Assembly (NCBI RefSeq): GCF_020966755.1
Contig: NZ_JAJKFT010000010.1
Location: 3,064,720-3,128,719, forward strand
DNA length: 64,000 bases
Source of the DNA: Blastopirellula sediminis
GTDB taxonomy: Bacteria > Planctomycetota > Planctomycetia > Pirellulales > Pirellulaceae
Direction: 5' to 3'
Shown: piece after piece, positions 24,913-26,103 of the stretch
How the letters are laid out: each line of letters begins with the position of its first letter
Numbering within the stretch: the stretch's first letter is position 1
The notes under the pieces: model-generated
The model's database searches: none
The model's input: the letters and a program-made list of their open reading frames with translations, nothing else
What the model was told of the DNA's origin: nothing
Program-made: the position numbers and the translations under genes

Positions 24913-25022
24913 TCATTTTAGGCAACTGGCCTAGTGGAAATTCCGGGATCTTTCTAACGCTAGGCTGAAATTTTACGGCAAAACATCAGCGTTTCGTACA
25001 ATTGCGGCATGTTTTTTCGTTT

Positions 25023-25038
25023 TGGCACGCTGAATGCA
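25023..25038 (+). promoter_or_regulatory. Candidate sigma-54 promoter P1
   Basis: TGGCACG-N4-ATGCA matches the sigma-54 -24/-12 consensus (TGGCACG-N4-TTGCA) with one mismatch and the required 12-base GG-to-GC spacing. Predicted start of transcription is near 25049. No annotated gene follows before a terminator at 25359-25365. Confidence 0.65.
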
Positions 25039-25048
25039 ATTACGCTTA

Positions 25049-25365
25049 GCCATCAAAGGAGCGTCGAAGTTTATTCGGTGAATCAAGGATGACCAGGATG
25101 GTCAAAGATTTACCGCGGCGACAGATTCGACCCAACTTTGTAGATGCGTGGTCCATTTCTCAATTCACTCGGCAGGATGCAGGAGTGAGCCGGGAACTGG
25201 CCAACGCCTCGCTCTCTTGTAGAAGAGAGTCCTAACTCGACCAACTACGAGGCAAGACCTCGTTTACCCAAAGCATGATGGGGTGTTGTTCCTGACGACG
25301 GGGCTGTTGGGAACGGCGGTCGAGGCTGAGGAGATTTCGGTCTCTTTGGCCTCGGCCGTTTTTTT
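25049..25365 (+). ncRNA. Candidate structured RNA or short-peptide transcript upstream of glnB
   Basis: It lies between candidate promoter P1 and an intrinsic terminator. Local stems are visible: CTCTCT-tgtaga-AGAGAG (25212-25229), CTCG..CGAG (25237-25252), GAGG-caaga-CCTC (25250-25262) and GTTCC..GGGAAC (about 25288-25314). A 45-codon frame at 25098-25235 (starting MVKDLPRRQIRP) has AAGGA 8 bases before its ATG and could be a small protein. I do not recognise a known RNA family (not tmRNA, SRP RNA or RNase P by their conserved cores). Confidence 0.45.
25316..25365 (+). terminator. Intrinsic terminator of the candidate RNA
   Basis: CGAGGC (25321-25326) pairs with GCCTCG (25349-25354), with GAGA/TCTC inside and seven T at 25359-25365. 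An upstream GCCTCG at 25206-25211 could compete for the same left arm. Confidence 0.75.
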
Positions 25366-25366
25366 A

Positions 25367-25383
25367 TGCGCCACTATGGCGCA
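25367..25383. promoter_or_regulatory. NtrC-like activator-binding palindrome
   Basis: TGCGCCACTATGGCGCA is a perfect 17-base dyad (7-3-7) with the same layout as classical NtrC sites (TGCACCA-N3-TGGTGCA). It lies about 155 bases upstream of promoter P2, a normal enhancer distance. Confidence 0.55.
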
Positions 25384-25537
25384 AGTCTTTTTCATTTCTG
25401 TGCATGCATTTCGCGCGTGTTGCGCCCATTTCTGCTGATTTCACCGGCAATCTTTGTACTATTCGGGATAGCAATGTTATTCGTAACTTCCTTTGAATTA
25501 AGGGGTTGCACGCTGCTATCAGCCTCTTTGCCCCATT

Positions 25538-25553
25538 TGGCATAATGATTGCA
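25538..25553 (+). promoter_or_regulatory. Sigma-54 promoter P2 upstream of glnB
   Basis: TGGCATAATGATTGCA fits TGGCAYR-N4-TTGCA exactly, with 12 bases from GG to GC. Predicted start near 25563 gives a ~200-base leader containing three hairpins (GACCGG-tt-tCCGGTC near 25590, TCTGCC..GGCAGA at about 25630-25664, GGGCG..CGCCC near 25706-25728). Confidence 0.75.
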
Positions 25554-25764
25554 TTCCGTGGGGCAAGACGCTTAAATTTTTACGGCGGACCGGTTTCCGG
25601 TCTGCGCTGGCCTTCCAGCAGTCTCTCTCGTCTGCCTAATTCAAATGAGTTTTGGAGGCAGATGACCGTTGGGGCTGGTTAAGTGAACGTTTAAGTGCTC
25701 CCGAAGGGCGAATGTCCTTTTTGCGCCCGATCCACGTCACGTCAGAATACGGAGATGTTCGTCC

Positions 25765-26103
25765 ATGAAGAAAATTGAAGCGATTGTCCGTCATCACAAG
25801 CTCGATGAGATCAAAGACGCCTTGGTGAGCAAGGGATTCGGTGGGATGACCGCAATCGAAGTCCAAGGCTTTGGTCGCCAGAAGGGTCAGACCGAAACCT
25901 ACCGCGGCGCCGAGTACTCGATTGATTTCGTTCCGAAAATCAAAATCGAGATCGTCGCCACCGACGAACAATTCCAGGAAATCGTCGACACCATCATCGA
26001 AAAAGCTCAGTCGGGTCAGATCGGCGACGGCAAGATTTTCGTCAGCGAATTGACCGACGTCATCCGCATTCGTACCGCGGAATCGGGTTCGGCCGCTATC
26101 TAG
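25765..26103 (+). CDS. glnB: Nitrogen regulatory protein PII
   Basis: 112 residues, exactly PII size. It starts [20 protein letters not shown]. The T-loop [19 protein letters not shown] keeps Tyr51, the uridylylation site of proteobacterial PII. The B-loop [23 protein letters not shown] is intact. PII trimers sense 2-oxoglutarate, ATP/ADP and, via modification, glutamine, and control nitrogen assimilation enzymes and transporters. No amtB or glnA is adjacent. The upstream sigma-54 site fits nitrogen control; a strong terminator follows, so it is monocistronic. glnB or glnK cannot be told apart from sequence alone. Confidence 0.96.

Follow-up and report, generated by a model that had tools for sequence, protein, structure and literature searches.

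Organization of the glnB locus

The window, i.e., the whole 64,000-nucleotide stretch of Blastopirellula sediminis DNA analyzed here, contains a glnB-type gene, a divergent sufE-type neighbor and, between the two, a predicted small RNA flanked by two predicted sigma-54-type promoters (Table 1). NCBIfam PII models also match the glnB-type gene, with scores below their cut-offs. An earlier note on this DNA had described sigma-54 sites at 25023 and 25538 and a terminated stretch between them. Both sites were found at these positions, each with GG-N10-GC spacing, and the stretch is indeed closed by a 20-pair stem followed by a T run.

Table 1. Coordinates of the genes and predicted elements of the sufE-glnB region in the window
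Feature	Position	Strand	Remarks
sufE-type gene, divergent neighbor	24421..24912	-	Pfam SufE, 153.6 bits; start region overlaps enhancer-like site 1
Enhancer-like site 1, TGC-N11-GCA	24889..24905	+	-134 from the sigma-54 site of the RNA; counterpart in 13/13 RNA loci
Enhancer-like site 2, TGC-N11-GCA	24908..24924	+	-115 from the sigma-54 site of the RNA; 13/13 loci
Sigma-54-type promoter of the RNA (predicted), TGGCACG-N4-ATGCA	25023..25038	+	Site kept in 13/13 loci
Predicted small RNA, ~316 nt	25050..25365	+	Start inferred from promoter spacing
Hairpin GACC-AGGAU-GGUC, CsrA-type AGGA loop 1 (candidate)	25091..25103	+	
Hairpin tip GC-AGGAU-GC, CsrA-type AGGA loop 2 (candidate)	25172..25180	+	
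21-nt core AAGCATGATGGGGTGTTGTTC	25271..25291	+	Identical in 12/13 loci, one change in L058
Hairpin of the 3′ module	25285..25317	+	Compensatory changes between genera
Intrinsic terminator of the RNA, ~20 pairs + T run	25316..25365	+	Compensatory changes between genera
Enhancer-like site of the glnB promoter, TGC-N11-GCA	25433..25449	+	-105 from its sigma-54 site; 14/14 loci including L022
Sigma-54-type promoter of glnB (predicted), TGGCATA-N4-TTGCA	25538..25553	+	14/14 loci
glnB-type gene (PII protein, 112 aa)	25765..26103	+	Pfam P-II, 105.8 bits, above cut-off

Conservation and distribution of the RNA

The ~316-nt stretch is 84 to 92% identical in the three other Blastopirellula genomes searched. 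Comparison with glnB loci of related Pirellulaceae showed the same order of parts (sufE, promoter, RNA, terminator, promoter, and glnB) in 13 of 13 loci, four of them in Blastopirellula and nine in a sister genus (g43), which we take to be Bremerella. Bremerella belongs to the same family. A sufE-type match lies near all 13 RNA loci and is also found in L022, a locus of a third genus (G022:C63:26500-31000) that carries the closest other glnB in the comparison sample (82%). There, the RNA is absent although the glnB promoter and its enhancer-like site are kept.

For the 99-nt 3′ module, 10 loci served to build a covariance model, which was searched against 241 genomes of the family. Thirteen genomes matched at 98 to 116 bits, the window's own included, corresponding to four of the window's genus (g1) and nine of the sister genus; 10 of them are the model's own sources, and G158, G159, and G160 are new. 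Weak matches were limited to G210 (29.4 bits) and to four hits antisense to the RNA itself (~27 to 28 bits). A search of 296 genomes of the order likewise returned 13 matches in all, with a weak one in G470 (32.6 bits). G210 and G470, the only candidates outside the two genera, were taken as chance matches, and neither glnB nor sufE was matched at the G210 locus (L059). Since the 13 genomes represent two related clades, the independent evidence that they offer is limited. Among five pattern matches in named genomes, L033, the Blastopirellula marina DSM 3645 locus that carries the RNA, and L035 matched the model, and L034, L036, and L037 did not; the L037 match lies at the edge of the stretch examined and, judged by eye, is without the AAGCAT that opens the core. 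The same pattern found no match in viral contigs.

A nearly invariant 3′ module follows a variable 5′ domain

The ~316-nt stretch folds better than its shuffled versions (z of -4.48, with 0 of 100 shuffles as good). Its 3′ module is nearly unchanged across the 13 loci, and covariation analysis, which the earlier note had named as a check on its reading, revealed changes on both sides of the stem that preserve the pair at 6 of 36 pairs; these compensatory changes separate the two genera, so each counts as about one event. The 5′ domain, on the other side, is variable in length, giving predicted RNAs of 215 to 318 nt, and no convincing alignment of this domain was obtained between the two genera. 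In consensus folds computed within each genus, double changes affected 7 of 98 pairs for seven sister-genus RNAs, with an unfavorable covariation term of +4.27 (L026 and L027, which have short 5′ domains, were left out of this alignment), and 2 of 106 pairs for the four Blastopirellula RNAs, with a slightly favorable term of -1.75. No Rfam 15 family reached its gathering score in the window, L029, L056, L058, L026, or L030, and a permissive search of 24900-25800 returned only a match with an E value of 0.83.

Predicted promoters and enhancer-like sites are shared with nitrogen genes

Matches to the sigma-54 consensus are not significant by themselves. With up to three mismatches, 84 were counted in the window versus 98.7 expected, and with at most one mismatch the genome holds 51 versus 66 for the reversed pattern used as a control. 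Consensus frequency was thus rejected as proof of promoters, and conservation is what counts. In this respect, a tandem pair of TGC-N11-GCA palindromes, whose outer spacing we take to equal that of an NtrC site, precedes the RNA promoter in all 13 loci, always spaced by 19 bp. In the window's genus, the pair sits at -134/-115, except for one of the four loci, where it is at -135/-116; in the sister genus, it sits at -144/-125, except for one of the nine loci, where it is at -145/-126. The arms of site 2 read TTGC/GCAA in all four Blastopirellula loci and CTGC/GCAG in five of the nine sister-genus loci. Because site 1 overlaps the sufE start in Blastopirellula, part of its conservation in this genus could reflect coding; in the sister genus, sufE is located farther away. 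The glnB promoter has a single such palindrome in 14 of 14 loci, at -105 in Blastopirellula, -116 or -117 in the sister genus, and -115 in L022. Additional copies occur elsewhere in L001 and L032 (-171 from the glnB site), L022 (-32), L030, L026, and L057. For the six loci simulated, sequences of equal composition carried on average 0.36 to 0.51 copies per 1150 bases versus the 2 to 4 observed, the fraction of simulated sequences reaching the observed count being 0.001 to 0.05.

We next searched six genomes for a sigma-54 site combined with an upstream palindrome. With a gap of 86 to 116, 44 matches were found versus 26 in the control, two of the six genomes having fewer matches than the control, and with a gap of 117 to 147, 49 were found versus 28, a modest excess overall. 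In the home genome, 7 of 15 such rows lie before nitrogen-type genes, namely, glnB and those for an NtrC-like response regulator, NirB, a NirB-like protein of 652 aa, an ammonium transporter, and, with two rows, the NMT1_2-type (NrtA-type) substrate-binding protein of a nitrate-type ABC transporter. Of the other eight, few were examined and no tie to nitrogen genes was seen; one of them, in L098, precedes an ORF that has no Pfam match. NirB and the ammonium transporter exceed their NCBIfam cut-offs, and the best NCBIfam match of the response regulator is ntrC, at 358 bits, below the cut-off of 558.6. The pattern also occurs in G128 before NirB, the ammonium transporter, an ABC transporter, and the NirB-like protein, in a cluster that also holds a NasA-like molybdopterin reductase scoring below cut-off, and in G148 at the ABC transporter and the NirB-like protein. 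Gene order and family suggest nitrate as the likely substrate of the transporter and the reductase.

As the same arrangement precedes nirB, amt, a nitrate-type transporter, and the NtrC-like regulator, the RNA very likely belongs to a nitrogen-assimilation regulon. The earlier note had offered either a nitrogen-responsive small RNA or a 45-residue peptide at this position; the first of these stands as a prediction, through conservation, covariation, and enhancer-like sites common to the nirB, amt, nrt-type, and NtrC-like genes, and the peptide is set aside below.

In L097, the NtrC-like regulator (2357-3832, minus strand) lies beside a hybrid histidine kinase with a PilJ-type sensor domain (201-2336, minus strand); the regulator gene has a sigma-54/enhancer site of its own, and a nitrate-type transporter is encoded nearby. 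We regard this regulator as a candidate for the activator of the regulon. According to the parts consulted of a survey of sigma-54 regulons, ammonium and nitrate transport are under sigma-54 control in Pseudomonadota, and NtrB/NtrC is of limited conservation in Planctomycetota, where predicted genes are named ZraR (PMC12316311), which calls for caution over the name NtrC here. The main text of that survey uses neither the word glnB nor the word sRNA (PMC12316311).

Hairpin loops of the 5′ domain resemble CsrA sites

Hairpin loops containing GGA with an A at -1 or -2, the rule by which A(N)GGA loops were counted, are present in 11 of 13 loci, with two loops in nine loci and one in L024 and L029. 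They sit near +39 to +47 and +105 to +126. None was found in L026 or L027, and the reverse complement and the glnB leader are free of them in all 13 loci. Shuffled sequences contained on average 0.03 to 0.14 such loops, and the observed number was reached by at most 1% of 300 shuffles in nine loci and by 8.7% in L024 and L029, values that are optimistic because the rule was set after the sequences had been seen. A measure computed over the structural ensemble agrees in 8 of 13 loci, where no more than 1 of 60 shuffles reached the observed value; this number was 5 of 60 in L024 and 16 of 60 in L029 and L058, and L026 and L027 gave no signal. Both loops of Blastopirellula read CAGGAUG, the first loop of the sister genus reads AAGGAU in most cases, and the loops were kept while their stems diverged beyond alignment between the genera.

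In the parts of the source consulted, the CsrA site is given as CAGGA(U/A/C)G within a hairpin loop and as an ANGGAN hexaloop (PMC7652899). CsrA-family matches were found in 14 of 14 genomes searched, G022 included, with 5 to 13 in each and two in all below cut-off; some of them lie within longer frames. Since the loops match the described sites and CsrA genes are present, titration of CsrA is the favored role for the 5′ domain, an assignment that we make tentatively and that falls somewhat short of probable. In L026 and L027, the 5′ domain is shortened to 120 to 140 nt and the AGGA loops are lost, with the 3′ module unchanged, so CsrA titration cannot be the whole function. A fuller scheme, in which an NtrC-type/sigma-54 nitrogen signal would lead to the release of CsrA-controlled mRNAs and the 3′ core would provide a second output by base pairing, is conceivable and, taken in all its parts, rather doubtful. 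Under this scheme, the nitrogen regulon and PII would be linked without intermediates to the carbon-storage regulator, in bacteria that have several CsrA paralogues.

The 3′ core as a possible seed

The main alternative is that the RNA belongs to the same regulon and acts purely by base pairing, with the core AAGCAUGAUGGGGUG as its seed and the AGGA loops incidental. This reading is a genuine contender that we nonetheless consider less than probable. In its support, 12 of 13 loci share one and the same core, which persists where the 5′ domain has shrunk. Moreover, the glnB leader of all nine sister-genus loci contains CAUCAUGC, whose pairing with the core has an energy of -22 to -28 kcal/mol. 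However, this pairing is weak when set against shuffled leaders: the fraction of shuffles as good is at most 4% in six of the nine sister-genus loci (0.02, 0.03, 0.03, 0.03, 0.04, and 0.04) and 8 to 42% in the other three (0.08, 0.34, and 0.42), and in Blastopirellula it reaches 9 to 89% (0.09, 0.63, 0.72, and 0.89), which is not notable. The glnB leader was accordingly not retained as a target of the core. The sequence CATCATGC, which is complementary to the RNA core, is present in the glnB leader of every sister-genus locus (L024-L029 and L056-L058), ~130 bases upstream of the glnB start, and in none of the four Blastopirellula loci. The leaders of nine other regulon genes were also rejected as targets, the best fraction being 0.05 (nrtA-type, G128) and the other eight 0.14 to 0.75, in a test that used approximate starts, at least three of the nine being off the start codon (NtrC-like and NirB of G000 and amt of G128).

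The exact seed complement CCATCATGCTT occurs at 42 sites in eight genomes; eight of these sites are the RNA itself, leaving 34 versus 12 for the reversed sequence, a rough control whose dinucleotides differ. Thirty of these loci were examined and seven were the RNA; among the 23 others, six sites, in four genes, coincide with a plausible start codon or shortly precede one. Judged from their translations, these genes encode two secreted-looking proteins, a band-7-like protein, and a kinase-like protein. No nitrogen-related target was recognized among the 30 of 42 sites examined and, by nucleotide comparison of the same loci, no site other than the RNA was common to both genera. Overall, neither the glnB leader, nor the nine regulon leaders, nor the seed sites examined provided a convincing target of the core.

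Attenuation, a small protein, or chance

Given that the RNA precedes glnB in the same orientation at every one of the 13 loci, it could also act in cis as a leader or attenuator, with transcripts from 25023 passing the terminator under some condition. We consider this improbable, as the terminator has ~20 pairs, glnB has its own promoter and enhancer-like site downstream of it in all 13 loci, and L022 keeps the same glnB promoter without any RNA. A search by eye for an antiterminator pairing found only short partial complements, and attenuation was rejected.

A gene for a small protein, either 45 to 48 residues long from 25089 or 25098 or the micro-ORF MMGCCS within the core, appears very unlikely. 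The longer frame is uninterrupted in the window, L030, and L031, with partly similar peptides, and all 13 loci contain a readable MMGCCS. On the other hand, the frame at 25089-25235 of the window corresponds to 80 aa in L030 and 40 in L031, a 1-nt deletion frameshifts it in L032, where it is broken after 29, and no counterpart of the 45- to 48-residue frame was found in the sister genus. MMGCCS, for its part, spans 6 codons in the four Blastopirellula loci and 24 in eight of the nine sister-genus loci, with no stop within the RNA in L058, and the core is invariant at synonymous positions too. The variable lengths between sister species, the frameshift, and the absence from the sister genus led us to reject the 45-residue peptide of the earlier note. 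Finally, fortuitous consensus matches in an untranscribed spacer, a reading with which the unremarkable frequency of bare sigma-54 matches would agree, are hardly credible in view of the conservation across two genera, the compensatory changes, and the fixed enhancer spacing.

A proposed nitrogen-regulated small RNA of two modules

These sequence comparisons point to a conserved noncoding RNA gene that is probably under nitrogen control. When nitrogen is limiting or nitrate is needed, an NtrC-type activator would bind the tandem TGC-N11-GCA sites and drive sigma-54 polymerase at 25023, yielding a noncoding RNA of ~316 nt that would end at the terminator; the same activator would separately drive glnB from 25538. 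In the fast-evolving 5′ domain, binding and titration of a CsrA-family protein would be the favored, if less than probable, role of the two A(N)GGA loops, and the near-invariant 3′ module (21-nt core, hairpin, and terminator) would most likely pair with mRNAs or hold a protein partner. As a whole, an independent small-RNA gene of the nitrogen-assimilation regulon, composed of two modules, is the likely identity of the stretch. If so, it would offer an experimental handle on nitrogen control in Planctomycetes, through the promoter with its tandem enhancer sites, the predicted regulon (nirB, amt, nrt-type, NtrC-like, and glnB), and a link between nitrogen signaling and CsrA that can be tested.

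An RNA of this sort at glnB is ordinary in kind and new as a family, and the CsrA link is interesting but unproven. As far as the parts consulted describe them, NrsZ of Pseudomonas aeruginosa is a nitrogen-regulated sRNA of ~226 nt that depends on sigma-54 and NtrBC and is encoded between ntrC and PA5126, and CrcZ of Pseudomonas is a decoy RNA for Hfq driven by RpoN and CbrB (PMC8395346). By analogy, these two appear nearest in kind to the RNA at glnB. Like NrsZ, it is intergenic, a few hundred nucleotides long, and beside a nitrogen-regulatory gene, with sigma-54 and an NtrC-type activator predicted here; unlike NrsZ, with which it is compared by description, it adjoins glnB rather than ntrC and belongs to another phylum. 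The proposed outline of a sigma-54-driven RNA titrating a global RNA-binding protein recalls CrcZ, although CrcZ carries A-rich Hfq motifs rather than AGGA loops, and the activator and the partner differ. The A(N)GGA motifs in predicted hairpin loops of most loci recall CsrA-titrating RNAs of the CsrB/RsmZ type, from which the RNA differs by its two loops at most, its predicted sigma-54 control, its large conserved 3′ module, and the two species that have no loop. McaS, an sRNA of E. coli, acts by pairing with mRNAs and also binds CsrA, in another organism and under different control. The proposed combination of CsrA-binding loops with a pairing region resembles it, going by its general description.

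In the part of a review consulted, a table counts eight sRNAs for the PVC group (PMC9029176). Among the matches listed in searches of the literature on small RNAs in Planctomycetes, Blastopirellula, and Bremerella and on glnB in Planctomycetes, in which subscription journals are little covered, the RNA is unreported.

Two minor observations concern neighboring sequences. Shortly before the glnB start, at 25734-25745 of the window, ACGTCACGTCAG is identical in 11 of 13 RNA loci, the remaining leader being different, and TCACGTCAG is present in all 13 RNA loci and absent from L022; this is a possible leader element. In L098 (1579-3248), a sigma-54 site and an enhancer-like site precede a frame of ~541 aa without a Pfam match, and a similar pattern row is found in G001 and G003.
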